DNA of 64,000 nucleotides from Friedmanniella luteola (GCF_900105065.1 NZ_LT629749.1:2976001-3040000); one strand, 5' to 3'. Positions 34,437 through 51,874 are shown, counted from the first letter of the stretch. The notes: generated by a model not told the origin, from the sequence alone. Numbers and translations are program-made.

Positions 34437-34447
34437 ACCCGTTCAGC

Positions 34448-34660
34448 TCAGCGGCTGACCAGCTCGTAGCCGGCCTCGTCGACCGCCGCCTTGACAGCGG
34501 TCTCCTCGACCGGGGCCTCGCTGGTGATGGTGACGGCCCCGGAGGCGAGGTCGACCTGGACGTCGGTGACACCGGAGATGTTGGTGACCTCCTCGGTGAC
34601 GGCGCTGACGCAGTGGCCGCAGGTCATGCCGGAGACGGTGTAGGTGGCGGTGGAGCTCAT
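34448..34660 (-). CDS. copZ: CopZ-like copper chaperone (HMA domain)
   Basis: A 70-residue single heavy-metal-associated domain with the GMTCGHCVSAV motif (C14 and C17) and the expected beta-alpha-beta pattern ending KAAVDEAGYELV. It binds Cu(I) through the two cysteines and passes it to CopA or to the CsoR repressor. It is encoded 55 bases downstream of csoR. Confidence 0.93.
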   Translation of the reverse strand: MSSTATYTVSGMTCGHCVSAVTEEVTNISGVTDVQVDLASGAVTITSEAPVEETAVKAAVDEAGYELVSR

Positions 34661-34715
34661 GACGGTGTGCCTTCCTCTAGTGATGTGACTGAGCTGGACT
34701 CAGTAGTAGGAACAG

Positions 34716-35015
34716 TCAGGACCGGACGAGGCGTGCAATGGCGTCGGAGGCTTCCTTCAGCTTCGCCTCGGCTTCCGGGCCGCCCGCGGCGACCGCATCG
34801 AGCACGCAGTGGTGCAGGTGGTCGTTCAGCAGGCCGAGGGAGACCGACTGCAGCGCGCTGGTCATGGCCGAGACCTGGGTGAGGATGTCGATGCAGTACT
34901 TCTCCTCCTCCACCATCCGTTGAAGGCCACGGGCCTGGCCCTCGATCCGGCGGAGCCGCTTGAGGTAGTCGTCCTGGTTGGAGATGTAGCCGTGCGGGCC
35001 GCTGTGCTCATCCAT
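34716..35015 (-). CDS. csoR: CsoR copper-sensing repressor
   Basis: A 99-residue DUF156 protein with the full Cu(I) site C41, H66 and C70 (KYCIDIL and DHLHHC) and the helix 1 basic patch YLKRLRRIEGQARGL that contacts DNA. The fingerprint equals that of mycobacterial CsoR shifted by five residues. Copper binding releases the operator. A matching operator lies about 80 bases upstream of its start, and two more lie at the 35.2-kb and 38.4-kb promoters, so it should control both strands of the island. Confidence 0.95.
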   Translation of the reverse strand: MDEHSGPHGYISNQDDYLKRLRRIEGQARGLQRMVEEEKYCIDILTQVSAMTSALQSVSLGLLNDHLHHCVLDAVAAGGPEAEAKLKEASDAIARLVRS

Positions 35016-35094
35016 CGCTGTGTTCTCTCCTTCAGTCCGACACCCTGCTCAGGTGATCCGGCCGTCGCGTCCTCGTCCTGCCGACACACTACCC

Positions 35095-35112
35095 GTACCC
35101 CCCTCGGGTATC
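35095..35112. promoter_or_regulatory. CsoR operator 1 (csoR promoter)
   Basis: GTACCCCCCTCGGGTATC is a pseudo-palindrome of the CsoR type (TACCC-N-GGGTA). It lies upstream of csoR, consistent with autoregulation. Confidence 0.8.
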
Positions 35113-35177
35113 AAGAGGACCAAGGGAGATCCTGGGTAGGACGCGTTCACCAACCGGCAGGCTCGCCTGGGGCTCCA

Positions 35178-35194
35178 ATACCCCCCTGGGGTGT
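35178..35194. promoter_or_regulatory. CsoR operator 2
   Basis: ATACCCCCCTGGGGTGT matches the same pattern and lies about 50 bases upstream of the DUF6153-type gene. The 65 bases between operators 1 and 2 hold the two divergent promoters. Confidence 0.8.
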
Positions 35195-35243
35195 AGTTGG
35201 TACAGTTGAGCAGGCGATACGGCAGAGTTGAGATGAGGTGGGG

Positions 35244-35759
35244 ATGCAGCGGACGGGGACTGGACCCCTCTTGGGCTTCTTGCGGCAGGCGCGCAGGAGC
35301 TGGCTCCGCCAGCTCCTACTCGGTCTGAGTCTGGTTGTACTGACGCTGGGCATCGTTGGCATGCACCAGCTGTCGGTCGGCCACGATGTCGCAACTGGCC
35401 AGGCCAGCCGCCACGCTCACACCGAGACAGCTGCCTCCGGTCCTGTCGAGGCCGCCCCTCATGGCCATGGGTCTACCGAGGTTGCCCTAGCTGACTTGCA
35501 CCTGGCCGCTTCTGCCGCAACCGGTGGGGTTGGTGCTGGCAACGAGGGCTGCACGACCTGTGATGACCACGAGATGGCGTTCGGGTCCTGCCTGCTAGCT
35601 CTGACGCTTCTCGTGTTCAGTTGGTTCTTGCGTCCCCCGCGGCTGCGCCACCTTCCACCCTTCCTACTTCCCCGCCTGGCGCCGGCGATGATCCGGCCAA
35701 CCCTCAGTCGGCTGGTTCCTTCACTCTCCTTGACGGAGTTGTCGCTGCGGCGAACGTGA
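35244..35759 (+). CDS. DUF6153-like membrane protein of the copper regulon
   Basis: A protein of about 171 residues. It has an N-terminal helix (LLLGLSLVVLTLGIVGMHQL), a His-rich outer loop (HDVATGQASRHAHTE and EAAPHGHGSTE), a GCTTCDDHEMAF motif with two cysteines, a second helix (LLALTLLVFSWFL) and a basic tail. The Cys-x-x-Cys-Asp-Asp-His set and His runs suggest metal handling. The ATG at 35244 is preferred; a GTG two codons earlier is also possible. A CsoR operator precedes it. Confidence 0.65.
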   Translation: MQRTGTGPLLGFLRQARRSWLRQLLLGLSLVVLTLGIVGMHQLSVGHDVATGQASRHAHTETAASGPVEAAPHGHGSTEVALADLHLAASAATGGVGAGNEGCTTCDDHEMAFGSCLLALTLLVFSWFLRPPRLRHLPPFLLPRLAPAMIRPTLSRLVPSLSLTELSLRRT

Positions 35760-35885
35760 TCAGACCTGTGTAGTTGACGACCCTCTGACCACCCTCAGAC
35801 CTGCTAGACCCGCGAAGGCAGGTCTCGGGGATCGGTCAAAACTCGTATGTCCCACACAGACCCTGCACGGAAGAAGAGACCTCTG

Positions 35886-36560
35886 ATGATGAGCAAGCAC
35901 GCAATGAAGGCTGGCCTCGGCGCTCTCGCCCTGGCTGCCACCCTTGGCCTGGCGGGCTGCGGTGACGACACCGAAGCTGGCGGCATGAGCGGCATGGACC
36001 ACAGCTCCTCCGCACCGAGCTCGAGCACGGCCGCCCCATCCTCGCCTGCGCCGTCGGTGGCCAAGACGCCGGCGTCGGGGCCGCAGAACGACGCTGACGT
36101 GATGTTCGCCCAGATGATGATCCCGCACCACCAGCAGGCGGTGGAGATGAGTGACCTGATGTTGGCCAAGGCCGACGCTGATCCTCGTGTTCTCACCCTG
36201 GCTCGACAGATCAAGGACGCCCAGGCTCCCGAGATCACCCAGATGACGGGGTGGCTCGAGGGGTGGGGCTTCAAGGTCCAGCCGATGGACAACGACATGG
36301 ACCATAGCGGCATGTCAGGCAACGGCATGGACGGCATGATGAGTGACGAGGACATGAAGGAGCTCGAGGCAGCCAGCGGTGCTGACGCGTCGCGGATGTT
36401 CCTCGAGGGCATGGTGAAGCACCACGAAGGTGCGGTGGAGATGGCTCAGACCGAGATCTCCGACGGCGAGAACCCCGACGCCATCAAGCTCGCGGAGGCC
36501 ATCGTCACCAGCCAGCAGCAGGAGATCACAGTCATGAAGGACCTGCTCACCCAGCTCTGA
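35886..36560 (+). CDS. DUF305 lipoprotein
   Basis: A 224-residue lipoprotein. The signal peptide ends in the lipobox LGLAGC (Cys 25). After a Ser/Pro linker come two copies of the DUF305 ferritin-like motif: MMIPHHQQAVEMSDLML and MVKHHEGAVEMAQTEI. The paired His-His and Met-rich segments (DNDMDHSGMSGNGMDGMM) fit copper binding on the outer face. Two adjacent ATGs follow a GAAGAAGAG site. It is a usual companion of actinobacterial copper islands. Confidence 0.88.
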   Translation: MMSKHAMKAGLGALALAATLGLAGCGDDTEAGGMSGMDHSSSAPSSSTAAPSSPAPSVAKTPASGPQNDADVMFAQMMIPHHQQAVEMSDLMLAKADADPRVLTLARQIKDAQAPEITQMTGWLEGWGFKVQPMDNDMDHSGMSGNGMDGMMSDEDMKELEAASGADASRMFLEGMVKHHEGAVEMAQTEISDGENPDAIKLAEAIVTSQQQEITVMKDLLTQL

Positions 36561-36840
36561 GCCCGCCCACCCAGCAGGCATCGCCGGGATCAGACACGCG
36601 CTGGTCCCGGCGGTGCTGTCGCCCTCTCTCACGCCTTCGGGGCGCGGCCGCACCCCTTGAGTCGCGACCCTTCGCCTTGCTGGCGTCCAGTCGAGGCTGC
36701 GAGCCATCTACCGGTTCGCGTCTCTCGTCGACGACGGAGTCACCAATGACCTTGAACCTGTCCTTAGGCATTGCATCTGTGCCTGGCGTTGCCCCGGCCC
36801 GGGCAGCAGCGCGCCCTGGCCTTTCGAGGCGGCATCGACC

Positions 36841-37524
36841 ATGACAAGCAGCGCTGTCCAGGTCCGGCCGATGCGCTCGACCGACCTAGCCTCGGTGGTG
36901 GCCGAACACCAGGAGTCGCAACCCGACGGGCTCTACGCCCGACTCGGTGATCGGTTCCTGCACACCTACCATTCCGCCTACCTCGCCAGTCCGGGCACAG
37001 CTGCCTTCGTCGCTGAGCTCGACACCCGTCCGGTGGGCTTCGTCACTGGGATTGTTTCCACTGCTGCCCACCGCCTGGCGATGAAGGAGGCATGGCCACG
37101 GTTGGCCGCAGCTGCTGCACTAGCCCTGCTGCAGCGACCGGCCACGCTTCGTCCTGCTCTGCTCGGGCCGACCGCAGTTAGTTGTCTGTGCCACTCAGCC
37201 CGACTGCTGCAACCAAGCCCCCCTTGCGCGGGCACCGCCACCGCCACCGCCACCGCCACCGCCACCGGAATCGTCACTTACTTGGCCGTCACCACGACCG
37301 CCCGAGGCCGTGGCGTTGGAGACGCGCTTCTCCAGGCGTTCCTCCACCAGGCTCAACTGCGCGGCTGCACCAAGGTCACTCTGGCCACTCAGGCCGGCGC
37401 CGAGGGTGCTGCGCCCTTCTACGCACACCGCGGCTGGACTCCTGAGTCTGTGCACCGCACCGCCACTGGCCGCCCCCTGCAGGTGATGGCCTGGACCTAC
37501 CCGCCCCGAGAGGTGGCCCAATGA
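36841..37524 (+). CDS. GNAT acetyltransferase with a tandem Thr-Ala insert
   Basis: A 227-residue GNAT protein: VRPMRSTDLASVVAEHQ at the N-terminus, the CoA-binding TTARGRGVGDALLQAFL and the C-terminal APFYAHRGWTPE. Between the two halves lies a run of Thr-Ala pairs encoded by five CACCGC units and one CACCGG. The repeat changes length in steps of two residues without shifting frame. Its stop overlaps the start of the next lipoprotein gene (ATGA), which ties it to the copper island. The substrate is unknown. Confidence 0.75.
   Translation: MTSSAVQVRPMRSTDLASVVAEHQESQPDGLYARLGDRFLHTYHSAYLASPGTAAFVAELDTRPVGFVTGIVSTAAHRLAMKEAWPRLAAAAALALLQRPATLRPALLGPTAVSCLCHSARLLQPSPPCAGTATATATATATGIVTYLAVTTTARGRGVGDALLQAFLHQAQLRGCTKVTLATQAGAEGAAPFYAHRGWTPESVHRTATGRPLQVMAWTYPPREVAQ
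37233..37268 (+). repeat. hexanucleotide tandem repeat CACCGC inside the GNAT gene
   Basis: Five perfect CACCGC units followed by CACCGG. Such runs are prone to slippage; here gain or loss keeps the frame. Confidence 0.9.
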
Positions 37525-38357
37525 ACACCAAAGGCAAGCTCGCAGGCAGCCTCGCCCTGTTGTTCGCCGTGACCTTGAGCAGCTGCACGCCGTCGGAGTC
37601 AGACCAGGCCGCTAGCGGTGAAGACTTTGTCGGTCACGTGCACGGGCTTGGCGTCGATCCTGCTGACGGGGTGCTCTACGTCGCCGCCCACGGCGGGGTC
37701 TTCCGACTGCAGGACCGTCGCCTGCAGCTGGTGGCTGGCCGTGCCCAGGACACCATGGGCTTCACCGTGGCTGGCCCGAACCACTTTCTCGGCAGCGGCC
37801 ACCCCGACCCCACCGACCGAGACCAGCCCGTCCATCTCGGCCTCATCGAGTCCCGCGACGCCGCCCAGACCTGGACCCCGGTGTCACTGGCTGGGGCAGC
37901 AGACTTCCACCTCCTCGAGCAGGGTGTCGATGCGCTCTACGGCTACAACTCCCAGAGCAGCAGTGTCCTGAGGACCACGGACCAGAAGGAGTGGGACGTC
38001 GTCCTTCCCGCCGAGGTGTCCGACCTTGCGCCGCACCCGACCAAAGCCGGTCTGCTGCTCAGCATCACCGCCGACGGCCTGGTGCGCACCGAGCTGAACG
38101 GCCCGACCACCCAGCTGGCCGAACCCACCGGGCTGTACCAAATCGAGTGGCCCACCCCAGACCTGCTGGTCGGCATTAGCACCAACAACGGCCTGTACGA
38201 GAGCACCGATCAAGGCCGCAGCTGGACCCTCCGCAGCCAGCTGCCCGACGACCAGATCGACGCCTTCGACGTCAGCGGCGACTCCTGGCACCTCGCCACC
38301 GACCAGAACCTCTACACCTCCCCCGACCGCGGCATCACCTGGGACCTGCTGATCTGA
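37521..38357 (+). CDS. BNR-repeat (sialidase-like propeller) lipoprotein
   Basis: A 278-residue lipoprotein with lipobox VTLSSC. The mature part has the propeller pattern of the F510_1955-type family: EDFVGHVHGLGVDPADGVLY, then ESRDAAQTWTPVSL, YESTDQGRSWTLRSQL and TSPDRGITWDLLI. These are BNR-like Ser/Thr-x-Asp-x-Gly-x-x-Trp repeats. There is no sign of the sialidase catalytic set, so a binding role is more likely. Its start overlaps the GNAT stop. Confidence 0.75.
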   Translation: MNTKGKLAGSLALLFAVTLSSCTPSESDQAASGEDFVGHVHGLGVDPADGVLYVAAHGGVFRLQDRRLQLVAGRAQDTMGFTVAGPNHFLGSGHPDPTDRDQPVHLGLIESRDAAQTWTPVSLAGAADFHLLEQGVDALYGYNSQSSSVLRTTDQKEWDVVLPAEVSDLAPHPTKAGLLLSITADGLVRTELNGPTTQLAEPTGLYQIEWPTPDLLVGISTNNGLYESTDQGRSWTLRSQLPDDQIDAFDVSGDSWHLATDQNLYTSPDRGITWDLLI

Positions 38358-38420
38358 CCGCAGTCACCACGACCAGGGAATAGCGCTGGCCTCTTGCTCG
38401 TTGCCGCCAACAGGAGCAAG

Positions 38421-38438
38421 ATACCCCCCAGGGGTACT
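38421..38438 (+). promoter_or_regulatory. CsoR operator 3 (copB promoter)
   Basis: ATACCCCCCAGGGGTACT, the closest to a perfect palindrome of the three, ends 12 bases before the copB start codon, where repressor binding would block transcription. Confidence 0.85.
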
Positions 38439-38450
38439 AGAGGAGGGTCG

Positions 38451-40595
38451 ATGATGAACGAGCCAGCACCACACCAAGGCCACACCGCCACCCATCCCGG
38501 TGGCGCCCAGGAAGGCCACGTCGAGCCCGGCGGCCAACTCGCCGAGCCAGGACACGGGTCCCACAACGAGCACGAGTCCCAGGGCGGCGGGCATGGAGGT
38601 CATGGCGGGCATGGGGACCACGTGGCCATGTTCCGGCGGCTGTTCTGGATCATGCTGGCCATCGGGCTGCCGGTGGTCTTCTTCTCCGACATGTTCGCGA
38701 TGATCCTGGGCTACGACCTGCCCGACGCCGGCTGGGTTGCCTGGGTCTCCCCGGTCCTGGGCACCCTGATGTATGTGTGGGGCGGCAGGCCGTTCCTGAC
38801 CGGCGCTGTCTCCGAGATCCGTGCCAAGAGCCCGGGGATGATGCTGCTGGTGGCCCTGGCCATCACCGTGGCGTTCCTGTCCTCCCTCGGCTCCAGCCTC
38901 GGTCTGCTCAGCCACGAGCTGGACTTCTGGTGGGAGTTGGCGCTGCTGATCGTCATCATGCTGCTCGGCCACTGGCTCGAGATGCGGTCCCTCGCGCAGT
39001 CCGCCTCCGCGCTGGAGTCCCTCGCTGCGCTGCTGCCTGATGAGGCCGAACGGGTCGAGGGCGACCAGGTCGTCATCGTCTCCCCCAGCGACCTGGCTCT
39101 CCATGACGTCGTCATCGTTCGCCCCGGCGGCCGCGTCCCGGCCGACGGATTGGTTGTCGACGGCACTGCCGACGTGGATGAGTCGATGATCACCGGCGAG
39201 TCCCGCCCTGTTGCCCGCACCGTCGGCGACACCGTCGTCGCGGGCACGGTCTCCACCGACTCCGCGTTGCGGGTCGAGATCACCGCGGTCGGTGACGACA
39301 CCGCCCTGGCCGGGATCCAGCGCCTGGTCACCGAAGCCCAGTCGTCGTCGTCGCGAGCTCAGCTGCTCGCCGACCGCGCTGCCGGCTGGCTGTTCTGGTT
39401 CGCCCTCGCCGCCGCCGCCATCACCGCCCTGGTCTGGACGCTGCTCGGACAGCCCGACCACGCCCTCATCCGCACCATCAGCGTGCTGGTCATCGCCTGC
39501 CCCCACGCCCTCGGCCTCGCCATCCCCCTGGTGGTCTCCATCGCCACCGAACGCGCCGCCCGCGGCGGCGTGCTGGTGAAGGACCGGACCGCACTCGAGG
39601 CCATGCGCACGGTCAACACGATCCTGTTCGACAAGACCGGCACCCTCACCCGCGGCGAACCCGCCCTCACCTACGTGCTGACCGTGGACGGGCGCAGCGA
39701 GGACGAGCTGCTGGCCCTGGCCGCAGCTGCGGAAGCCGACAGCGAACACCCGCTCGCCCATGCCATCGTCACCGCAGCCGCTGATCGCAGCCTCCCTCGG
39801 CTCACCGGGGCCAACTTCCAGGCCTCGACCGCGGTTGGGGTCACCGCCACCGTCGACGGGCACACCGTCAGCGTCGGCGGACCGGCCCTGCTGCGTGAGC
39901 ACCAGCTCGAGACGCTGCCCGGATCAGAGGCGTGGAAGGCCGACGGCGCGATCATCCTGCACGTCCTGGTCGACGGCCGGACTGCCGGTGCCCTTGCGCT
40001 GGCCGACGAGGTCCGCCAGGAGTCCCGCGAAGCGGTTGCCGCCCTGCACAAGCTCGGCCACCACGTCGTGATGATCACCGGCGACGCCGAGCAGGTCGCC
40101 CAGAGCGTCGCCTCCGAGCTCGGGATCGACCAGGTGTTCGCCGGGGTCCGCCCCGAGGACAAGGGCGACAAGGTCAAAGAGCTCCAGGCTCAGGGCCGCC
40201 GGGTCGCGATGGTCGGCGACGGCGTCAACGACGCCCCGGCACTCGCGCAGGCCGACGTCGGGATTGCGATCGGCGCTGGCACCGACGTCGCCATTGCCTC
40301 CGCCGGTGTCGTGCTGGCCAGCGACGACCCCCGCTCGGTCCTGTCGGTCATCGAGCTGTCTCGGGCCAGCTACCGCAAGATGCGGCAGAACCTCGGCTGG
40401 GCCGCCGGCTACAACCTCATCTCGGTTCCCCTCGCCGCTGGCATCCTCGCGCCGGTCGGGTTCGTGCTGCCGATGGCCGTGGGGGCCCTGCTGATGTCGG
40501 CCAGCACCGTCGTGGTCGCTGCCAATGCTCAGCTGCTCCGTCGGCTCGACCTCAGCCCCGAGGCCAGCACCAAGGCGGTCCTGTCTGGGCGCTAG
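38451..40595 (+). CDS. copB: CopB-type P1B ATPase
   Basis: A 714-residue P-type ATPase. The N-terminus is His-rich (ESQGGGHGGHGGHGDHV) in place of an HMA domain. Helix 6 has VIACPHALGLAIPL, the CPH motif of CopB pumps. The phosphorylated Asp is in LFDKTGTLTRGEP; SEHPLAHA and [16 protein letters not shown] follow. CopB pumps are linked to Cu(II) or silver export. The ATG is preceded by GGAGGG and by CsoR operator 3. With CopA it gives the element two copper pumps of different type. Confidence 0.95.
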   Translation: MMNEPAPHQGHTATHPGGAQEGHVEPGGQLAEPGHGSHNEHESQGGGHGGHGGHGDHVAMFRRLFWIMLAIGLPVVFFSDMFAMILGYDLPDAGWVAWVSPVLGTLMYVWGGRPFLTGAVSEIRAKSPGMMLLVALAITVAFLSSLGSSLGLLSHELDFWWELALLIVIMLLGHWLEMRSLAQSASALESLAALLPDEAERVEGDQVVIVSPSDLALHDVVIVRPGGRVPADGLVVDGTADVDESMITGESRPVARTVGDTVVAGTVSTDSALRVEITAVGDDTALAGIQRLVTEAQSSSSRAQLLADRAAGWLFWFALAAAAITALVWTLLGQPDHALIRTISVLVIACPHALGLAIPLVVSIATERAARGGVLVKDRTALEAMRTVNTILFDKTGTLTRGEPALTYVLTVDGRSEDELLALAAAAEADSEHPLAHAIVTAAADRSLPRLTGANFQASTAVGVTATVDGHTVSVGGPALLREHQLETLPGSEAWKADGAIILHVLVDGRTAGALALADEVRQESREAVAALHKLGHHVVMITGDAEQVAQSVASELGIDQVFAGVRPEDKGDKVKELQAQGRRVAMVGDGVNDAPALAQADVGIAIGAGTDVAIASAGVVLASDDPRSVLSVIELSRASYRKMRQNLGWAAGYNLISVPLAAGILAPVGFVLPMAVGALLMSASTVVVAANAQLLRRLDLSPEASTKAVLSGR

Positions 40596-42059: not shown

Positions 42060-42332
42060 TCATTGGCCGAGGAAACGCGCGCGGCCGCCGTTGTTCGGAT
42101 CTGACCGGACCGGGGTCAAGCGTTCGGCCGACACCCATTGCTGGGTCGCGGTAGGTCGACCATCTTCGTCAACTCCCGAGGTGAGGACGAGCGCTGCCCA
42201 GCGATACGAGTGACGGCGCCACTCGAGCACGTAGCCCTGGACTGGCGCTACGCCGGCCTGGTCCGGCTGCACCCAGACATGGCGTGTGGAACGTGGTGTG
42301 GCGTAGCGCCGGTCCTTCCCCCGCTGCCCCAC
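42060..42332 (-). CDS. small conserved protein with an SOS-like box, copy 1
   Basis: A 90-residue soluble protein: KDRRYATPRSTRHVWVQPD, then GYVLEWRRHSYRWAALVLTS, VDEDGRPTATQQWVSAERL and a terminal TPVRSDPNNGGR. A paralogue at 47811-48080 is about 75% identical by eye. The strand-rich centre resembles a small SH3-like barrel. The start is GTG, only 8 bases from a palindrome of the LexA-box type. I do not recognise the family; induction by DNA damage or by conjugation is a testable inference. Confidence 0.7.
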   Translation of the reverse strand: MGQRGKDRRYATPRSTRHVWVQPDQAGVAPVQGYVLEWRRHSYRWAALVLTSGVDEDGRPTATQQWVSAERLTPVRSDPNNGGRARFLGQ

Positions 42333-42340
42333 TGTCCAAT

Positions 42341-42356
42341 TAGAACGCGTGTTCTA
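42341..42356 (-). promoter_or_regulatory. SOS-like palindrome 1: TAGAACGCGTGTTCTA
   Basis: GAAC-N4-GTTC with extra paired flanks, as in the actinobacterial and Bacillus LexA box core. It begins 8 bases before the small-protein start and directly abuts the stop codon of the gene upstream. Confidence 0.6.
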
Positions 42357-42773
42357 TTAAGTCGCTAGGACGGTGACCACCGGCAGCGCGGCGAACACCG
42401 CTCGGCCGGAGCCCACCAGGGCAGCAATTTGCTCGCCGGCGTTGTGGTGGGCCAGGTCGACGTCCCCATCACGGGCGATGACGACTACGCAGCGGCCCTC
42501 CAGCGCGTCGACGGCGGCCCACCAACCGTCAGGGGCGTACGGGTTGAGGTCGTCGAGCAGGGCCTGGTCGTCGATGATCAGCTGCAGCCGGTCTGACCTG
42601 ACCACCAGCTGGCCTGCCGCCGCAGTCGGCGGTGGTTCGCCGAAGAGTGCCCATCCGCGGTCGAGAAGCTGCGGAACCAGCACGTCGGCATCGTCAGTGG
42701 TGGCCATCAGCGCTGGCACCGGATGCTGGCCAGGGATCAGGGTCTTCGCGTACACCTGGACCACCGTAGAGAC
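42357..42773 (-). CDS. hypothetical protein upstream of small-protein copy 1
   Basis: A 138-residue soluble protein starting at GTG (VSTVVQVYAKTLIPGQHPVP). Later segments are VLVPQLLDRGWALFGE, LVVRSDRLQLIIDDQALLDD and LEGRCVVVIARDGDVDLAHH. No known domain. The stop codon touches the SOS-like palindrome. A decayed version lies in the same place next to small-protein copy 2, so the two genes form a duplicated module. The start is uncertain, because repeat copy C lies just upstream and may have cut the original 5' end. Confidence 0.5.
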   Translation of the reverse strand, partial: VSTVVQVYAKTLIPGQHPVPALMATTDDADVLVPQLLDRGWALFGEPPPTAAAGQLVVRSDRLQLIIDDQALLDDLNPYAPDGWWAAVDALEGRCVVVIARDGDVDLAHHNAGEQIAALVGSGRAVFAALPVVTVLAT

Positions 42774-42851
42774 CCGGCCTGACCGCAGCCCCGGGGACCG
42801 AGTCCGGCCTGGGGCCTGCCTGGGGTGGCCCAGTCCCCTGCCGGCCCCCCT

Positions 42852-42949
42852 TAGCTGGCGAGTGTGAGCAGCGGGGTCGGTCAAGGCTGGACGGAGTCCA
42901 CCGCGTAGCGGCACGGAGCGGCCTTAAGGGGCCCGGCCCGCTGTTCAAT
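42852..42949 (+). repeat. structured repeat, copy C
   Basis: Same architecture as copy B: outer CAGCGGG (42869-42875)/CCCGCTG (42937-42943), second stem TCAAGGC (42881-42887)/GCCTTAA (42921-42927) with one mismatch, then contiguous hairpins TGGAC-GGA-GTCCA, CCGC-GTA-GCGG and CAC-GGA-GCG. The outer stem differs from copy B at T-to-C on one arm and A-to-G on the other, so pairing is kept. Similarity continues into AGCGCGGGGCCA after the end. Confidence 0.88.
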
Positions 42950-43035
42950 CCTGGTCAGCGCGGGGCCAACCCGACCCTAGCCGCTGAAACCAGCCACCAG
43001 GCCCTGGGCCCCAACGAGGCCTCGGTGGTGTGGGG

Positions 43036-43524
43036 TTAGCGGTGTTTGCGGCCGGTGCCGGGGGTGTCGCCGCGGGGTCGAAGCTCGTCGACGATCTGTT
43101 CGGGGCTCATCTGGGTGTGGAGACATTCCAGGGCGAGGCGGACGACGGCGCTGCGGGAGACGGCTGTCTTCGGCTGGGAGGTGCGGCCGGTGTGAGTGAT
43201 GGTCTCGAGGAAGTCGTCATCGTCTTGCTCGAGGTAGACCGTCACCACCTTTAGCTCAGCCTTCGCCCTTGCCTTCGGCTCGGGTGCCGGCTTCAGGCCG
43301 CGCCTGGTCGCCGGCCGGGCTGCCTCTGTCGTCTCAGCTGCCTCCGCCTGCTCGGCTGTGGGTGCCTCGACCGCCGGCGCTGGGGCTGCGGTCGGTTCCT
43401 CCTGAGTTGTCAGCTCGGGGACGGAGGTGAGCTGGACGGGTGCGGAGCGGGCTGGGTTCCGCGGTGGGGGGATCTCCCGGGTGCGGCGGCCGCGGGCGGC
43501 GAGCTGGGACAGTCCGTCAGTCAT
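43036..43524 (-). CDS. partition partner protein with a ribbon-helix-helix-like C-terminus
   Basis: A 162-residue protein. The N-terminal half is a disordered Ala/Glu/Pro linker. The C-terminal half has a strand (LKVVTVYLEQDDDDFLETI) and the RHH-like helices AVSRSAVVRLALECLHTQ and SPEQIVDELRPR. Its ATG overlaps the stop of the ParA-type gene, so it is most likely the DNA-binding partner that loads onto a centromere site. No obvious iterated site was found next to it. It is intact although its ATPase partner is broken. Confidence 0.65.
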   Translation of the reverse strand: MTDGLSQLAARGRRTREIPPPRNPARSAPVQLTSVPELTTQEEPTAAPAPAVEAPTAEQAEAAETTEAARPATRRGLKPAPEPKARAKAELKVVTVYLEQDDDDFLETITHTGRTSQPKTAVSRSAVVRLALECLHTQMSPEQIVDELRPRGDTPGTGRKHR

Positions 43525-44195
43525 GCCGTGTACTCCTGCACGAACGCAGCCACCTGCCGCAGCGCAGCAGCGACCGGCTGCAGGGCTTTCGCCGGTGGGT
43601 CGTCGGAGGCGATGGCCATCCGCTTCTTCCGGGTGCCGACGGCCAGGGCGGCGGGGATCAGCGGGCCGACCGGACGGGGTGCCGTCGACGATCCGGCCGA
43701 GCCGGCGGACTTCGGCTGCTGGTGCGACTGGGGGGACGAAGTTCGGGATCAGTACCACCGGGTAGTCGGTGAGCTCACGGACCATGTGCTCGGTGCCGTC
43801 GAGGTCGGAGCAGCGCAACAGCACTGGGGTGACCACCACATGGGCGATGGAGAGGGCGCCGTTGAGGACTCGGTGGCACCCGGGTGGGTGTCGACCACGA
43901 CCCAGTCCCGGCCCCGCTCCCCCGCCCACTTCGACGATGCGTCCGCGGTGTCGTCACGGCTGGCTGGTTCAGCTCCAGGTCCGGGTGCCCCGGCACAAGG
44001 TCAGGCTTGTTGAACCCACGCAGCAACCGCGGCGGCGTGCCCCTCTCGAACGCCGCCAACAGCGAGGAGCTCGTCCGGTCCTCGTTGCGGTAGCCCCATG
44101 TACGGGAGGCGCTGCCACCCTCCCAACTCGAGGTCCACGAGTGGGGCGCCCAGCAGCCACGCCAGCTCATAGGCCAGCGTGGTCCTCTTTGGTTG
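43521..44195 (-). pseudogene. ParA-type partition ATPase, frameshifted and without a Walker A motif
   Basis: In order on the minus strand: TTLAYELAWLLGAPLVDLE, WEGGSASRTWGYRNEDRTSS, LLAAFERGTPPRLLRGFNKP, GRDWVVVDTHPGATES, LSIAHVVVTPVLLRCSDLDG, YPVVLIPNFVPPVAP and KKRMAIASDDPPAKALQP. Frame changes are needed near 44127, 43960, 43865 and 43680. Upstream of TTLAYELA only ANNQ survives, so the Gly-Gly-Val-x-Lys of the P-loop is deleted. The product cannot be active. Confidence 0.8.
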
Positions 44196-44204
44196 TTAGC
44201 CCTC

Positions 44205-44772
44205 CCCGAGTGCGTCGGTCGGCGTAGACCAGGGTGCGGCTGTCGTAGCGCAAGGCGGCCGAAGACGGCGACGTAGAGGGCGTCGGAGCTCCGCGGTCGG
44301 CGCCTCGATTGAGGCAGCGTCGTCGAGGTCGGCCGCCGCTTGCTGGGCCGCTGCGAACGCCGCCGAGGAACGTAAGCGCGGCCTCGTAGATCGGCCGGCC
44401 GTCGGCCTGAACGGCAACCACGCCAGCATCGTCAGGCTTTACTTCCCGCAGCAACGGACGGCTCGAGAGGTTCCAATGTCTTCACCCCGGCGGGTTCGAG
44501 GCAGAGCCCACACGGTCCAACACGATTGGCGGGCAGCGCGTTGCCTTCTCCGTTGACGAGATCTACGAAGCCCCTGCGGATCGCCGCGAGGCACGGCTGC
44601 CGCCCGCTACGCGGCGTAGCCACCTACGGAGGCCTCTCGAGCTCACCTACGTCCCCGGCCCACCGCATCACCGTGATGCTCGCGCAGGGACTGGAGAAGC
44701 GCTGACCGGTGGGCCCCCGTCTGACTTTGCGTGCCCGAGGCTGATGTCGGCAGCCCGTGCTTGGCTGGAGGC
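44205..44772. other. degenerate region with no supportable gene
   Basis: About 570 bases between the ParA remnant and the nuclease gene. Short frames on both strands lack coding character, and no RNA or repeat was recognised. It probably holds remnants of whatever preceded parA. Confidence 0.4.
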
Positions 44773-45672
44773 ATGGCTGCTGTTGAGGGGTACGACTCGG
44801 ACTTCCTGCCGACATCGGTTCCGCTCCCTGCTCCGTCTGATGGAGTGGAGTCGGTGCGTCTGTTGCCGTTCACTCACTTCTCGGTGGTCCTTGAGCTGAG
44901 CCGTCGGCTGGCGGTAGTGACGGGGGTGAATATCGACGGTGCTCGGCTGGTCGAGGTGGATCGGGGTGATGACTGGCACCTTGATCCCCGGGTGCCGGCC
45001 GATCTGCAGTGCGGGCCGGAGGTGTACGCCGGCAACGACCTGGACCGCGGCCACCTGGTCCGCCGCCGAGACCCCGTCTGGGGTGATCAGGACACCGCCC
45101 GGCAGGCGAACCTCGACTCCTTCGCCTACGTCAACGCCGCCCCCCAGGCCGCCCTGTTCAACCAGGGCGAGCTGTTGTGGGCCGGCCTGGAGGACTACCT
45201 CCTCGACCACGCGCGCGCGCAAGAGCAGCGGCTGTCGGTGTTCACCGCGCCGGTCCTCGACGCCGACGACCCGCCCTACCGCGGCATCCGCATCCCCCGC
45301 CGGTTCTGGAAGATCGCCGCCTGGACCACCACCGCCACCACCAGCGACACTGGGACTGACGGTGACCAGCAGGTGCTGGCGGCCACCGGATACCTGCTGG
45401 ACCAGTCGCCGCAGCTGGACAGAATCGATCTCAGCGACCGTCAACCGGCCACGTACACCGGGCCGCCGCCGCTTGGCGCCTACCTCACCTATCAGGTGCC
45501 GATCGTCGACCTGGCCGCGTTGACCGGGCTCGACCTCGGACCCCTCCCTACCGCCGACCGGCTCCCCGCCCCAGCACACACCGTCACCGGCCAGAGCCGG
45601 TGGCGTCACCTCAGAACGCTCAGCGACCAGATCCTGCAGGTGGGTGATGCCGGTCGACCTGTGCTGTGGTGA
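44773..45672 (+). CDS. DNA/RNA non-specific endonuclease
   Basis: A 299-residue nuclease of the beta-beta-alpha metal type. The catalytic motif is NDLDRGHLVRRRDPVWG, with the general-base His in Asp-Arg-Gly-His; the metal-binding Asn is in YVNAAPQAALFNQG. Further family strands are LSVFTAPVLDADDP and IPRRFWKIAAWT. There is no signal peptide, so it acts in the cytoplasm or is delivered. The ATG start has a GGAGG that is too close, so the true start may differ. Its 3' end overlaps the convergent ligase gene by 53 bases. Confidence 0.85.
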   Translation: MAAVEGYDSDFLPTSVPLPAPSDGVESVRLLPFTHFSVVLELSRRLAVVTGVNIDGARLVEVDRGDDWHLDPRVPADLQCGPEVYAGNDLDRGHLVRRRDPVWGDQDTARQANLDSFAYVNAAPQAALFNQGELLWAGLEDYLLDHARAQEQRLSVFTAPVLDADDPPYRGIRIPRRFWKIAAWTTTATTSDTGTDGDQQVLAATGYLLDQSPQLDRIDLSDRQPATYTGPPPLGAYLTYQVPIVDLAALTGLDLGPLPTADRLPAPAHTVTGQSRWRHLRTLSDQILQVGDAGRPVLW

Positions 45673-46564
45673 GGTCGGGGCGGAGCCGGATCAGTCGGAG
45701 CTGGTGCCGCCACCGTCCGGCCTGCTGTGCAGCGTCACCGGCGACCTCGACCACAGTGAGCTCGACCCTGAGCAGGTCGACTGGGCTGCCGCCGAAGTGA
45801 CCGGCGCCGATCCGAGCCGGCCACGGATGGTCCTCGGTCGGGGTAAGTGCTGCGGCGAGGACGGCGGCTTGGTCGGTGGTGGGTGGGCCGGTCCGGCCGA
45901 CGATCACGAGCTCGCCGGTCGCGGTGTAGCGGCCAACGATGATTGAGGTGGGCTGGTCGAGGGTGCCGGTGACCGCGCCGACGATCACCTCGGACGTCTC
46001 GTAGGTGCGGACCTTGAGCCACTGCCGGTCTCCCGCCCGGTACGGGCTGCCGGCGCCCTTCACCACTACGCCTTCGATGCCGGTGGCGGCGAGGCTGCCG
46101 TCCATCCAGGTGAGGGCTTCGGTGCGGTCGAGGGTGTGTGGGGCGAGTTGCAGCGGCGGTCGCCACTCGGTCGCGGTCAGCTCGAGCAGGGGGGGCCGGT
46201 CGGTCCAGGACAGCGGCCGGACATCCTGGCCGTGCAGGGCGAGAAGGTCGAACACGACGAACGATGCCGGCAACCGGCGGGCCTGGTCGGCGACCCGGGT
46301 CGGGGAGCCGCTGCGCTGCAGCAACGCGTCCCAGTCGCACGCACCGTCTCGCCACACGACAATCTCGCCGTCGTAGATGCCCGCTTCCAGCTGCTCACCC
46401 CCGATAGCGATCAGGTCGGGGAACCGGTCACTCAGGTTCGTGCCGTGCCGTGACCACAGCTCCACGGCGGTCTCGTTGACGAGCAGGACACCGCGCCAGC
46501 CGTCGAACTTCATCTCATACACACACCCACCGGGAAGCGCCGCCGGCTCCGGCACCTCCCGCAC
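45620..46564 (-). CDS. ATP-dependent DNA ligase, LigC/D-type catalytic core
   Basis: A 314-residue ligase with the AMP-accepting Lys in YEMKFDGWRGVL (motif I), ASFVVFDLLALHG (III), GIEGVVVKGAGSPYR (IV) and DRQWLKVRTYE (V). An OB-type domain follows from about residue 200. No nuclease or primase domain is fused. The GTG start gives MREVPEPAALPG. The residues expected before it (PVEVALPA) are present in another frame just upstream, so a 5' frameshift is possible but the catalytic core is whole. Confidence 0.85.
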   Translation of the reverse strand: MREVPEPAALPGGCVYEMKFDGWRGVLLVNETAVELWSRHGTNLSDRFPDLIAIGGEQLEAGIYDGEIVVWRDGACDWDALLQRSGSPTRVADQARRLPASFVVFDLLALHGQDVRPLSWTDRPPLLELTATEWRPPLQLAPHTLDRTEALTWMDGSLAATGIEGVVVKGAGSPYRAGDRQWLKVRTYETSEVIVGAVTGTLDQPTSIIVGRYTATGELVIVGRTGPPTTDQAAVLAAALTPTEDHPWPARIGAGHFGGSPVDLLRVELTVVEVAGDAAQQAGRWRHQLRLIRLRPDLTTAQVDRHHPPAGSGR

Positions 46565-46611
46565 CGGCCGGGAGCGCTACCTCAACCGGGACACGTGAGG
46601 GCGGGAACTGC

Positions 46612-46836
46612 TCAGCCACCGGCCACCGCCTGCTCCTCGCCATCGCGGTCGTCGCGCTGGGGGCTGTTGCAGTCGGGTTGCTGAGCTTGGTTGCGGTCGA
46701 GGCGGCTGAGCCGGACACTAACGGTGTTGCGTCGCAGGCCGAGCATGGCGGCGATCTGGCGGTGGCTGGCGCCCCAGCTGCGTAGCTGGAGCAGCTGGGC
46801 GTCGGTGACTCTCGGCGGAGCGTCCGGGTCATTCAT
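46612..46836 (-). CDS. small helix-turn-helix protein
   Basis: A 74-residue protein whose centre is a helix-turn-helix: LLQLRSWGASHRQIAAMLGL followed by RRNTVSVRLSRLDR. The tail is hydrophilic. Its start overlaps the end of the upstream hypothetical gene by 8 bases. It may regulate the surrounding genes. Confidence 0.65.
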   Translation of the reverse strand: MNDPDAPPRVTDAQLLQLRSWGASHRQIAAMLGLRRNTVSVRLSRLDRNQAQQPDCNSPQRDDRDGEEQAVAGG

Positions 46837-47386
46837 CCCGAGACACCTCCGGCCGTGCCGCCTCGTGTTGTCCGCGGCGGCGGAGCCGCTGCTGCAGGGT
46901 CCTGACCTCAGAGAACTCCGCGGTCAGCTGGTCGGCCAGACGGGCCGCCTGCTCGGGCGGCAGGTGGTCGACGTCTACGGCGCGGGCCTCGGCTGCGACT
47001 TCGCGCAGGCCAGCGACAGCTCGGGCCAGGTGGTGAGCGACGGTCCGGCGTTCCCGCTCCGCGGCTGCCGGGTCCTGAGCGGGCGGTGTGCGGCCGAGCG
47101 CCGCCTGCTGCAACCGCCCCTCGTCCAGGTCGACGCCAGGTCGCGCGGCAACCAGGAAGACTCCCCCACCCGCCTGCTGTCCCGGGTGCACCCGCACCTG
47201 ATGCAGCGTCAGCTGACCGTCGGCGGCGAGCCCGGCAGCGGTTCTTCGGGCCGCGGTCAGCTCGACCCGGGTGGCGCGACGGCCGAGATGCCGGTCCAGT
47301 GCTGCCGCAACCCCCACTAGCTCGGCGTCAGCCAGGGCGTCGAGCAGCACTAGCTGCCAGCGACCCCGAACTGTCACAGAGGCCAC
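46829..47386 (-). CDS. hypothetical protein
   Basis: A 185-residue protein. The N-terminal half has short strands (GRWQLVLLDALADAELVGVA and LTLHQVRVHPGQQAGGGVFL); the C-terminal half is a long charged helix (AERERRTVAHHLARAVAGLR, then AARLADQLTAEFSEVRTLQQ). No motif is recognised. It is coupled by an 8-base overlap to the helix-turn-helix gene, so the two probably act together. Confidence 0.5.
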   Translation of the reverse strand: MASVTVRGRWQLVLLDALADAELVGVAAALDRHLGRRATRVELTAARRTAAGLAADGQLTLHQVRVHPGQQAGGGVFLVAARPGVDLDEGRLQQAALGRTPPAQDPAAAERERRTVAHHLARAVAGLREVAAEARAVDVDHLPPEQAARLADQLTAEFSEVRTLQQRLRRRGQHEAARPEVSRDE

Positions 47387-47810
47387 CTTGCCCCAACACC
47401 AGTCGGCGGGGGGCTGCTCCTGAACTCACCCGCAGTCCTTGGCGGTTTTTTCCAAGCGGTTGCCGGGCAGCGGCCGCGGCCGCGGCCGAGGACCCTTTGT
47501 CGTAGAAGGAGCTTGTGCAGGGGGTTGATGCGGCGACGTTCCAGGAGGGTGGGCCTGGCACCACGAGGTCGAAGGCACCGACGAGGCCCTGGGCAGCGGC
47601 TAACCGAACAAGGCTGAGGCCCAAGCGGCAGGCCGCGACTACGGCCGGGCCGGGCAGGTAGAGCACAACATCTGCAACCTCGACGGCCGCATCGGGGAAC
47701 GCAACACCTACGGCCACAACCCACGCAACATCCCAGGCTGAGACCTCCAACCGCCAGCGCACTCGGAGCGCCCGCGGAGCTCACTCTCCACACCGCTCAC
47801 CTTGGCGCCG
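47387..47810. other. gap with only a possible gene remnant
   Basis: About 420 bases without an intact gene. On the plus strand near 47661-47743 a short frame reads VEHNICNLDGRIGERNTYGH before a stop; it looks like the end of a lost gene but I cannot identify it. A NotI-type GC run lies near 47470. Confidence 0.35.
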
Positions 47811-48080
47811 TCAGCTGAGGGAACGGACGCGGCCGCCGTTGTTCGGGTCTGACCGGACAGGAGTCAGGCGTTCGGCGGGCATCCACTGCTGGATTGCCGT
47901 CGGCCGGCCCTCCTCATCAACACTGGACACCAGCACGAGGGCGGTCCAGTGGTAGGAGTGGCGGCACCATTCCAGCACGTACCCCTGCGCCGGCGCGACA
48001 CCGGGCCGGTCAGGTTGCACCCAGACGTGACGGGTGGTCCGTGGGGTGGCGAACCGCCGGTCCTTCCGCCGCTGGCCCAC
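47811..48080 (-). CDS. small conserved protein with an SOS-like box, copy 2
   Basis: An 89-residue paralogue of the protein at 42060-42332: KDRRFATPRTTRHVWVQPD, GYVLEWCRHSYHWTALVLVS, VDEEGRPTAIQQWMPAERL, TPVRSDPNNGGR. The start is GTG, 8 bases from a palindrome like that of copy 1. Retention of both reading frames, while the partner gene has decayed in this copy, suggests the small protein is the selected part. Confidence 0.7.
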   Translation of the reverse strand: MGQRRKDRRFATPRTTRHVWVQPDRPGVAPAQGYVLEWCRHSYHWTALVLVSSVDEEGRPTAIQQWMPAERLTPVRSDPNNGGRVRSLS

Positions 48081-48088
48081 CCTGCTAT

Positions 48089-48104
48089 TAGAACGCCTGT
48101 CCTA
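48089..48104 (-). promoter_or_regulatory. SOS-like palindrome 2: TAGAACGCCTGTCCTA
   Basis: Same position and flanks as palindrome 1, with GTCC in place of GTTC in the right arm. Copy 2 may thus be bound less tightly. Confidence 0.5.
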
Positions 48105-48330
48105 TTACTTCGCCGACACCCTTGCCGCAGCTACGGCCTCGAACGCGGCCGCCGCCCATCACCGAAGCGAGCTGCCCGTCCCGTCGCGGCGAGCCGGATC
48201 GAGTCGCCTCCGGCACGCTCGCTACTTCTAACACACCCGGACCTGCAGGGTCGACCCCGGCCCACCAACACGTCGGGGACTGCCGGGCTCAGGTCGTCGA
48301 GGATGGCCAGATGGTCGACGCGATCCAACC
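48105..48330 (-). pseudogene. decayed paralogue of the hypothetical gene at 42357-42773
   Basis: The stop TAA abuts the palindrome exactly as in copy 1. Upstream pieces in more than one frame align loosely: DHLAILDDLSPAVPDV against QALLDDLNPYAPDG, GDSIRLAATG against GDVDLAHHN, and FEAVAAARVSAK against VFAALPVVTVLAT at the C-terminus. Nothing before about 48330 can be followed. Confidence 0.45.
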
Positions 48331-48496: not shown

Positions 48497-51400
48497 TCAG
48501 CTGGCCCGCTTCCTGGTCAGCGGATGGTTGTGGAGGACCGCGCTTGTGCGGGCGGGTAGTTCGGTGGGGGCTGCACCGTCGTCGGACCGGTTGTAGACGC
48601 GGTCGTGGAGGATCTGGTTGGCCTGGTCCGGGTGACCTTCGGCGGCGGCGACGGCGGCGAGGTCGAGGAGCGGGATCTCCTCGTAGGGGGCGGCGAGAAT
48701 CGCCGTTTCGGCGGCCGCTCGGGCGACTGGAAGGTTTCCGGTCTTGAGGGCGTGGGTGGTGAGGAGGTGAGCGACGTCGACGATGGCGCAGAGGAGGTGT
48801 TGGTCGAGGCGGTCACCATCGATCATCCAGGTCCAGCCGCCGGGTCGGAGCTGGTCGAAGGGTCGGCCGGTGACGAGGGTGAGGGCGGCGCGGAGGTCGT
48901 TGATGCCGTCAGGTCCGCGGGTTTCGCCGCGGACGCGGAGGCGGCGGAACAAGTCGGCATCCAGTAGTAGGCCGTCGACTTGGTAGGTGGGGATGCCGCG
49001 GGTGCGGGCGGCGTCGCTGTCGCGGGCGTCGGGTAGGTGTTGGCGGCCGGTGCGCGGGTTGGTGCCGAGCCAGTCGCGGAGGATCTTGATGTCGGTGCGA
49101 ACGCGGGGGCCGCTGATGCCGATGGCGTCGGCAACCTCGTCAGGGGTGGCGCCGCGCGGGCGGGTGGCGAGGTAGGCGAGGAGCTCGGTGTAGTAGGGGC
49201 GCCGTTTCGCCAGCGCTGTCCCGTGGGTGCGGGCCCAGACAGGGCCGAGAAGGGTGAGCCGTGGCAGGTCGCAGTCCTTCTCCCGCCAAGCCGTGAGGTC
49301 GGCGTCGAGGGTGGGGTCGGCATCCTCGACGATGGCACGAACCCGGACCGGTACCTGGGGGGCGATGGCGGCCAGGTCGTTGATCGTGGTGGTTGCGGCT
49401 TCGAGGTACTTCTGGTCGTCGCCGTCCAGGAGGGTTGTCGCCGGTTCGGTGGGCGGGGCGGTGCGGGGCAGGGTGTGCTCTGCGCGGATCGCGCCGGCGG
49501 CGTCGGCCCACCCCCGCCAGCCCTCCTCGTCCTTGTCGACCGCGGGTGCGGGGACGGGTTGGTCGTCGGTGGTGTCGGCCTGGGCCAGGAGTGCGGCGCA
49601 GCCTTCGGCTTCATCGGTGGTGAGGCCGACGACGATCAGGTCGAGGCCGAGGTGCGGGACGGTGAGCCGTCCCTGCCCGGTGACGGCCAGCGTACGGGCG
49701 GAGGCTGGCAGCTCGGTCTGGCCGGTGAGGACGACTGCGGTGCCGGTCCGGGCGGGGTGGTCGGCGACGAGCTCAAGTAGCTGGGTGAAGGGCGGATGCT
49801 CGGACAGCTTGGGCAGCTCGAGGAGCAGCATCCGGGCGGGCCAGGCGTCGGCGTCAACCTGGTGAGCGCGGCCGGTTGGGACGTCGAGGGCTGACTCGTG
49901 GCTGCGGTCGAGCAGTCCGGCGGCGTCGGCGGTGGCGTTGGCAAGCAGGTGCTGGATGCTGTCGGCGGGGTGGGCGTGGACCCGTTCGGGGTTCATGCCC
50001 TTCACCTCCTGGGCGATGCCGAGGCAGTCCAGGCGGGCTTGCTCAGACCACGGGTTGCAGGCGATCTCGGCGGCCAGGTAGCGGGCCAGGTCGTGGCTGT
50101 AGAGGGGGTCGCCGGTGATTGCGAGGACACCGGCCTGCTCGCAGTTGAGCAGCCAGACCGCGCCGTCGTCGCTGGCGCCGATCGTGACCAGGAGGGGGTA
50201 GGGGGCGGGTTGGTCGAGCACGGTCGGCCCGACCGTGTCGAGGTCGGTGCTCGCGGGCAGTCGCCAGCTGGGCTGGTCGTCGCAGGCCTGCCATGGCGAC
50301 GTCGGCGGCGCCGGCTCTGCGAGGTGCAGGGTGAGCGCACCGGGGGTCAGCTCGACCGCGGCCAGGTCGGGCATCGGCTGGCGGGCGGCGGCCCGGGCCG
50401 CGGCGAGCCGCCGCAGCGCCTGGTCGACGAGGTCGAGGGTCGGGACCGTCTGGTCGCCGGTCAGTACAAGGGTCTTCTCGACCGGAGCCAGCAATGGGGG
50501 TGGGACGGCGATGGTGCGGCCGGGTCGGCGCGCCCGGAACTGGCAGGCGCGGCGGCGGCGCAGGGCCACCAGCAGGGAGGCAGCCAGGAGGGCGCCGGCG
50601 CCGGTCAGCCCGGTCAACGCCCACGCCGGCAACGCGGCCGTCGCCGGCTCCTCGGGCTGTCGGCTCTCGTCAGCGTGGGTCGGCCCGGCAGAGGCGGTCG
50701 GCGGCGGGGGCGAGCTGGCTGGTGTGGTCGACGGCTGCGGTGTCGCTGAAGAAGAGGAGGGACGCGTACTCGGTGCACGCGGGCTGGCGGGGGCGGCTTC
50801 GGCTTGACTGCTTCGTGGCGAGGCGTCGCGGCCGGCTCGCGGGTCTGTCGGGATACCTGCTTGATCGGCCCTATCGGGATCGGCCCTGTCAGAATCGGCC
50901 CTCTTGGGCTGGTCGGGGTGCGGCTGTTTGGCTGTGGTGGGGATGGTGAGGGTCCAGCCGACGTCGATGATGTCGGGGTCGGTGAGGTGGCGGCCGTCGG
51001 GCTGCCGGATTGGGGTCGAGGCGCGGAAGATCTCGGGGTAGCGGTCGGCGTCGCCGAGCTGCTCTTCGGCGATGTCGGACAGGGTGTCCCCCCGCTGGAC
51101 TCGCACCCGCTCTCCTCGAACGTTGGTCGCTGACGGTGGGTGGGCGGGGAGCTTGAGGGTCTGGCCGGGGGTGAGGAAGCCGGGCCGGCCGTGCAGGGTG
51201 TCGGTGTTGAGTGCGACGATCTCGGTGTAGCGGAGGCCGGAGCCGAGGCGGTCAGCGGCGATAGACCACAGCGACTCGCCCCGCCGCACGGTGTGCAGCG
51301 GGGCGGCGCCGTTGACTGCGGACCGGGCTTGGTCCGCGCGGTGGTGAGCCGGCGGGTGCTGTGGGGGTGAGCTGTGCGAGTTGTCGGCGGGGTCGGGGTT

Positions 51401-51874
51401 CGAGCTGGTGGGTTGGGCGAAGGCGACGGGCGCTGGCTGGGAGGCTAGCGGTGCGGCGAGGAACAGCAGCAGGGCGGCGCTGACCAGCTCTCGGGCCCCG
51501 ACCTGGGGCAGCCGGAAGCCTGGCACCCGGGGCGCTGCCCGTCCCCGCAGCTGGGCCACCACCTCGATAACGACCAGGACGGCGAACAGCAGCCAGGCGG
51601 CCCAGGCGGCCAGGGTGAGGCTGGCGAGGGCGAGGGTGCCGTCGTCGCGGGTGGTGGCGGCAGTCCAGATCTGGGCCGGCGACGGGACTTGGTCCGGGAT
51701 CACGTCGGTGCCGACCAGGGCGAGCAGCGCCGGTACACCGGCGACCCCAGCGAGCAGGGCCAGCGTGGCGGCCAGCCCAACCAGCCGCGCCGCTGGGCCC
51801 CGGCCTTCCGCCGGCCTGGGCGATGTCGGCGTCGGCGGTGTGGGGTCCCGCCGTGGGGGCGTGGGTCGGGTCAT
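48497..51874 (-). CDS. membrane protein with two LysM domains and a C-terminal BTAD-type regulatory domain
   Basis: A 1125-residue protein, last in the Tad operon. About three helices lie in the first 150 residues (LVGLAATLALLAGVAGVPAL; LASLTLAAWAAWLLFAVLVV; LVSAALLLFLAAPL). Two LysM peptidoglycan-binding domains follow (HTVRRGESLWSIAADRLGSG; VRVQRGDTLSDIAEEQLGDA), then a Pro/Ser linker and a helix near residue 420. The cytoplasmic part ends in a winged helix (TPDEVADAIGISGPRVRTDI) plus a helical BTAD-like region (FDQLRPGGWTWMIDGDRLDQ). It could link the wall to gene control. Its start overlaps the TadG-like stop. Confidence 0.82.
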   Translation of the reverse strand: MTRPTPPRRDPTPPTPTSPRPAEGRGPAARLVGLAATLALLAGVAGVPALLALVGTDVIPDQVPSPAQIWTAATTRDDGTLALASLTLAAWAAWLLFAVLVVIEVVAQLRGRAAPRVPGFRLPQVGARELVSAALLLFLAAPLASQPAPVAFAQPTSSNPDPADNSHSSPPQHPPAHHRADQARSAVNGAAPLHTVRRGESLWSIAADRLGSGLRYTEIVALNTDTLHGRPGFLTPGQTLKLPAHPPSATNVRGERVRVQRGDTLSDIAEEQLGDADRYPEIFRASTPIRQPDGRHLTDPDIIDVGWTLTIPTTAKQPHPDQPKRADSDRADPDRADQAGIPTDPRAGRDASPRSSQAEAAPASPRAPSTRPSSSSATPQPSTTPASSPPPPTASAGPTHADESRQPEEPATAALPAWALTGLTGAGALLAASLLVALRRRRACQFRARRPGRTIAVPPPLLAPVEKTLVLTGDQTVPTLDLVDQALRRLAAARAAARQPMPDLAAVELTPGALTLHLAEPAPPTSPWQACDDQPSWRLPASTDLDTVGPTVLDQPAPYPLLVTIGASDDGAVWLLNCEQAGVLAITGDPLYSHDLARYLAAEIACNPWSEQARLDCLGIAQEVKGMNPERVHAHPADSIQHLLANATADAAGLLDRSHESALDVPTGRAHQVDADAWPARMLLLELPKLSEHPPFTQLLELVADHPARTGTAVVLTGQTELPASARTLAVTGQGRLTVPHLGLDLIVVGLTTDEAEGCAALLAQADTTDDQPVPAPAVDKDEEGWRGWADAAGAIRAEHTLPRTAPPTEPATTLLDGDDQKYLEAATTTINDLAAIAPQVPVRVRAIVEDADPTLDADLTAWREKDCDLPRLTLLGPVWARTHGTALAKRRPYYTELLAYLATRPRGATPDEVADAIGISGPRVRTDIKILRDWLGTNPRTGRQHLPDARDSDAARTRGIPTYQVDGLLLDADLFRRLRVRGETRGPDGINDLRAALTLVTGRPFDQLRPGGWTWMIDGDRLDQHLLCAIVDVAHLLTTHALKTGNLPVARAAAETAILAAPYEEIPLLDLAAVAAAEGHPDQANQILHDRVYNRSDDGAAPTELPARTSAVLHNHPLTRKRAS

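Follow-up and report, generated by a model that had tools for sequence, protein, structure and literature searches.

Two copies of a small gene on an integrated element

The window, a stretch of 64,000 nucleotides from the genome of Friedmanniella luteola, contains two small genes, each preceded by a palindrome of the type GAAC-N4-GTTC (Table 1). An earlier note on this DNA had claimed two similar small GTG open reading frames, and both are indeed intact, with products that share 80% identity. The copies differ from each other at dN 0.117 and dS 1.05 (dN/dS about 0.11), and purifying selection evidently keeps the protein. Judged by sequence, the pair is an old duplication or the outcome of two acquisitions; in the reading preferred below, the two are old paralogues on one integrated element. 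In each copy the GTG start lies 8 nucleotides downstream of the palindrome, and a TAA stands directly before it (42357-42359 in copy 1 and 48105-48107 in copy 2), so that the gene strand reads TAA-TAGAACACGCGTTCTA-ATTGGACA-GTG in copy 1 and TAA-TAGGACAGGCGTTCTA-ATAGCAGG-GTG in copy 2. The arrangement described earlier, a palindrome 8 nucleotides from GTG and abutting a TAA, is thus seen at both copies, perfect in copy 1 and with one core mismatch in copy 2.

Table 1. Features of the two small-gene loci, in coordinates of the window
Feature	Position	Strand	Remarks
Small protein gene, copy 1	42060-42332	-	intact GTG open reading frame, 90 aa, pI about 11
Candidate -10 TCTAAT, copy 1	42339-42344	-	overlaps the box, 6 nt before GTG; T at -7 and A at -11, as in most of 65 homologous promoters
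LexA (SOS) box, copy 1	42341-42356	-	TAGAACACGCGTTCTA; palindromic arms perfect
Upstream gene of copy 1	42357-42770	-	open; about 137 aa when counted from the first residue taken, with an uncertain start; TAA abuts the box
Small protein gene, copy 2	47811-48080	-	intact GTG open reading frame, 89 aa
Candidate -10 TCTAAT, copy 2	48087-48092	-	register as in copy 1
LexA box, copy 2	48089-48104	-	TAGGACAGGCGTTCTA; single mismatch in the GAAC core
Likely decayed upstream-gene remnant, copy 2	48105-48330	-	pieces in at least two frames, weak similarity

Two further copies of the small gene are found in the host genome. The third, at 1375940, is intact, whereas the fourth, at 3239377, is dead, with GTT in place of the start codon and an in-frame TAG. 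All four host copies carry the box, including the dead one. The third copy is followed downstream by a HicA/HicB-like pair (about 1924-2486 of that locus).

The gene upstream of copy 1 has no match to a curated family. Fragments similar to it were identified upstream of copy 2 in shifted frames (48319-48152 and 48279-48145, with tblastn E values of 0.06 and 0.26), together with a short nucleotide match. Of the earlier statement that the partner of copy 2 has decayed while the small gene stayed open, the second half is plainly correct, and the decay of the partner is likely, at a similarity as weak as these E values. The description of the locus as a two-gene module does not generalise, since the third copy is preceded by a different gene. 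We also considered the upstream gene as a general partner of the small gene and rejected it, because its relatives occur elsewhere in the host genome and the third copy has another upstream gene. The upstream gene is outside the conserved module.

A tyrosine-recombinase-like integrase gene (60637-61605) directly adjoins tRNA-Met (61698-61772), and this junction is likely where an integrative conjugative element holding both copies has its attachment end. The element also carries coupling-protein-like and Tad-like genes and copper-resistance-like cargo; its genes, except the tRNA, were named by eye. The copper-handling cargo at 31033-40595, also read by eye, comprises two P-type ATPases, a CopZ-like gene and a CsoR-like gene. 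Between the two small genes, ParA/ParB-like genes at 43036-44450 are apparently broken by frameshifts, and a DNA/RNA non-specific endonuclease gene (44731-45672) and an ATP-dependent DNA ligase gene (45620-46564), both assigned by Pfam, lie tail to tail with an overlap of about 50 nucleotides. A 185-aa protein that starts with VASVTVRGRWQLVLLDA and is without a Pfam match is encoded at 46829-47386, and its relatives adjoin two other small-gene copies in the same genome. This RGRW-type gene was set aside as a partner of the small gene, as it was seen only at the mobile copies of this genome. On the other side of copy 2, a gene for a LysM protein of 1125 aa (48497-51874) adjoins it, and a 1004-aa relative adjoins a family copy in another genome, which suggests a shared element backbone.

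The palindrome as a LexA box

In the single contig of the host genome (4.7 Mb), the pattern YCGAACNNNNGTTC has 25 matches, compared with 5 for the reversed control, both strands being covered and self-palindromic sites counted twice. The sites precede lexA (two boxes), recA, ruvC, a radical-SAM gene, a DUF222/HNH gene and imuA'-imuB-dnaE2. The host LexA (PF01726 and PF00717) and RecA were identified by Pfam. The imuA'-imuB-dnaE2 operon (host genome 1395000-1402000), whose genes were named from sequence by eye, encodes proteins of 221, 530 and 1153 aa, the first of which has no match in Pfam. A perfect LexA box lies 10 nucleotides before its GTG start, a layout like that of the small genes. Because the host has the same box before lexA, recA, ruvC and imuA'-imuB-dnaE2, the palindrome at the small genes can be read as a LexA (SOS) box. 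Within the window alone the box pattern with up to 3 mismatches was found 5 times against 3.5 expected, which is not above chance, so the evidence for the box comes from its position and from the homologues rather than from counts in the window.

Among 68 test loci of homologous genes, the box is exact in 52, has one mismatch in 13 and is missing in 3. Of these, the 40 loci from previously unused genomes gave 36 exact boxes, 3 with one mismatch and 1 without a box. In a first set of sequences around homologues (936 kb), 66 exact GAAC-N4-GTTC sites were identified, most of which belong to the family gene (54 loci), while roughly twelve further loci have a box with one mismatch; in the second set, formed by the 68 test loci, nearly all of the 53 exact boxes in 159 kb are at this gene. 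A minority of homologues is without the box: decayed copies within the genus, the copy on a Yimella plasmid and some remote paralogues. With 65 of the 68 loci carrying the box within one mismatch, the homologues do not refute the reading proposed earlier. Chance palindromes can be ruled out, since throughout the order Propionibacteriales the box has a fixed place ahead of the gene.

The distance from box to start in the 65 test loci with a box ranges from 7 to 21 nucleotides and is bimodal, mostly 10-11 or 19-21 nucleotides. When promoters were aligned at the start codon, 50 of 65 had T at -7 and 43 of 65 had A at -11; this puts the -10 hexamer between positions -12 and -7 relative to the start codon, although the match to TANNNT is poor in about 20 of the 65. 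The box ends in TA in 28 of 31 promoters with short spacing and in 0 of 21 with long spacing (P = 1e-11, Fisher's exact test); at short spacing, the terminal TA of the box is the first pair of the -10. Because this register fits a transcription start at the start codon, we infer that the small genes are expressed from leaderless mRNAs.

A box that is kept on the promoter across species would be expected of a member of the LexA regulon, and here it is kept within one mismatch in 65 of 68 loci, at fixed spacing and with the -10 in register. The SOS/LexA reading of the earlier note is strongly supported by these comparisons, through the host LexA, the same box at SOS genes and the box in most homologues at a fixed distance, and LexA regulation of the small genes appears well supported. 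We also considered that the palindrome belongs to another repressor, for example one encoded by the element, with a convergent likeness to the LexA box. An HTH gene does occur in the vicinity of copy 2 (46612-46836) and of some plasmid copies, but the identical core precedes lexA, recA, ruvC and imuA' in the same genome and the box is retained in chromosomal homologues without that HTH gene, which makes such an owner extremely improbable.

Both the box sequence and its position on the promoter resemble those of the known Actinomycete LexA regulon (S. venezuelae, PMC9380542; mycobacterial SOS box). The ChIP-seq motif of S. venezuelae LexA is tCGAAC-N4-GNNCGa (PMC9380542), and the small-protein family is not among the genes in the main table of that study. 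The closest experimental parallel is the S. venezuelae plasmid gene pvnz_37140 (TCGAACACGTGCTCTAATCGAATTATG), which is bound by LexA and induced 15-fold by mitomycin C (PMC9380542). This is a small gene on a plasmid, and its box-TCTAAT-N6-RTG layout is that of window copy 1; unlike the small genes, it shares a transcript with a DNA polymerase IV gene. As an already studied member of the family it was rejected, since its protein is not homologous and is without the tryptophan core.

Distribution of the family

A profile search found the family in 207 of 392 Propionibacteriales genomes. At class level 54 of 395 genomes had it, a single-query search of 117 near genomes gave 25, and a phylum-wide sample of 396 genomes gave 3. 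It is near-core in Nocardioides, Aeromicrobium and Kribbella-like genera. Plasmid copies with the box are found in Nocardioides JS614 (pNOCA01, conjugative), Pimelobacter (pA-N39), Janibacter and Aeromicrobium, while a Sinomonas plasmid copy has a half box and the Yimella one has none. For most plasmid copies no listed gene lies beneath the match, and the gene table is incomplete there. Decayed copies are frequent within the same genus. At six loci in other genomes of this genus, two diverged paralogues stand in tandem behind a single LexA box, and a Pimelobacter plasmid has a similar pair.

Sixteen family members showed no family in Pfam, NCBIfam or PHROGs, the best E value being 0.05 and to unrelated families. 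Weak matches to titin among PDB sequences were judged spurious. A viral origin was considered, but no relative was found in viral contigs, searched with a four-sequence alignment, or in a phage collection. A scan of genome contigs gave a single doubtful fragment from an archaeal MAG. No description of the family was found in the open-access literature, the search being confined to journals outside subscription. The small genes probably belong to an apparently undescribed Actinomycete family of SOS effectors.

Other family copies have ordinary chromosomal surroundings in Nocardioides-type genomes, whereas element-borne copies lie beside relaxase, primase-polymerase or ssb genes. No constant neighbour gene was found across the 12-kb neighbourhoods of family copies. 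The earlier proposal of a family of conjugative elements thus holds for the window, where the integrase lies beside tRNA-Met, but the family is not transfer-specific, being largely chromosomal in Nocardioides and relatives.

These data also bear on the idea that the small protein is an element-borne SOS antagonist, which would damp the host SOS response during transfer as PsiB does. Copies are indeed present on conjugative or mobilisable elements, some of them near ssb or relaxase genes. However, the family is chromosomal in most of the Nocardioides-group genomes examined, LexA control implies that the protein appears only once SOS is under way, and the Pfam scan gave no match to any family. 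We regard this antagonist role as very unlikely. Dosage selection, also suggested earlier, gains no support from the sequence data, which equally bring nothing against it.

Predicted fold of the small protein

The conserved residues of the family are the W of [HV]xWV, PG[LV], the W of LEW, the W of the strand that follows and the final W ahead of PAxxLxP. The two window copies were modelled with AlphaFold from inputs of two sequences and one sequence, and both models show a barrel of five strands in which a short helical turn precedes the last one (pLDDT 75 and 77; pTM 0.62 and 0.61). The structures matching these models are SH3-like barrels, including the PHF1/PHF19 Tudor, PWWP, NEXT-complex and HspQ domains, with best Z scores of 6.6-7.3; all Z scores are below 8, a range in which unrelated matches are common and which is too low for family assignment. 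The SH3/Tudor-like barrel is a predicted fold, and the SH3-like guess made earlier agrees with the two moderate-confidence models from the structure prediction that it had proposed.

Tudor, chromo-barrel and PWWP domains (PHF1/PHF19, NSD2, 53BP1) share the predicted five-strand barrel and helical turn at Z scores of up to 6.6-7.3, but the sequence identity is only 10-16%, with Z below 8, and a common fold says nothing on function. HspQ (5ycq), also a small bacterial protein made of one SH3-like domain, is matched at Z 6.6 with an rmsd of 2.8 over 65 residues; it has 9% identity to the small protein and is one among many equal matches. HspQ is a specificity factor of the Lon protease and is under heat-shock control. 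The predicted pI of family members ranges from 4.9 to 11.9, which counts against one simple nucleic-acid-binding role.

Possible functions

PsiB and SulA/YneA/SidA are small proteins tied to SOS or to conjugative elements, and they differ from the small protein in regulation, distribution or predicted fold. Family members gave no Pfam or NCBIfam match that would indicate similarity to PsiB or to division inhibitors of the SulA/YneA type.

LexA-controlled inhibitors are a common class, SymE being one example, and the small protein could serve as a damage checkpoint or inhibit growth in the way of SulA/YneA, or be an SOS toxin like SymE or TisB: a harmful product very tightly silenced by LexA, whose release upon damage would pause division, replication or translation. 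The position of the box on the -10, which predicts tight repression, the small size of the protein and the frequency of decayed copies in the genus would fit such a product. However, no membrane segment is visible by eye and no known inhibitor family is matched in Pfam or NCBIfam; recA, lexA and imuA' have similar boxes, so that tight control does not imply toxicity. An inhibitor is in our judgement unlikely.

The small protein could also be an accessory of repair, replication or mutagenesis, partnering RecA/RecX, SSB or the mutasome in the manner of DinI, RecX or ImuA'. The promoter is designed like that of imuA'-imuB-dnaE2 in the host genome, the near-core status in Nocardioides, Aeromicrobium and Kribbella-like genera would suit such a role, and on some plasmids an ssb or relaxase gene is only a few kb away from the family copy. 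Against this, no repair gene is a constant neighbour in the 12-kb neighbourhoods, and no sequence similarity to the DinI, RecX or ImuA families was found. An accessory role is possible, though on balance somewhat unlikely.

The reading that we prefer, and consider probable, is that the small genes are LexA-gated SOS effectors, expressed from leaderless mRNA, whose product is an SH3/Tudor-like partner-binding protein. In the undamaged cell, a LexA dimer would sit on the 16-bp box, which overlaps the -10 or lies directly against it, and keep the promoter shut. DNA damage would lead to RecA-triggered cleavage of LexA and open the promoter, and transcription would begin at or beside the start codon to yield a leaderless mRNA. 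The product would be small, probably cytosolic and of a single domain, a predicted SH3/Tudor-like barrel with four conserved tryptophans and a variable N-terminal tail that is basic in this clade. It would most likely bind a partner, either a protein peptide or a nucleic acid, in the damage response and act as an adaptor or inhibitor. Copies of the gene travel on conjugative elements and plasmids. The sequence comparisons support the box, the promoter register, the family and the selection on it, and from these we infer the induction by damage and the partner-binding action.

More tentatively, in a version that is plausible but falls short of likely, the protein may be a so far unnamed SOS effector that is near-core in the Nocardioides group. 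It would be an SH3/Tudor-like adaptor rich in tryptophan, translated from a leaderless message under LexA control, and would turn a host machine (protease, polymerase or division apparatus) to another task once DNA is damaged; plasmids and integrative elements would have recruited it.

Few Actinomycete species have had their SOS regulon mapped, and annotation often misses small genes. A family that occurs in roughly one in two of the Propionibacteriales genomes sampled and carries a LexA box embedded in its promoter offers a ready entry point. If the proposed reading is true, the family would add a new kind of fold to the SOS effectors, and mobile elements would carry damage effectors of the host type.
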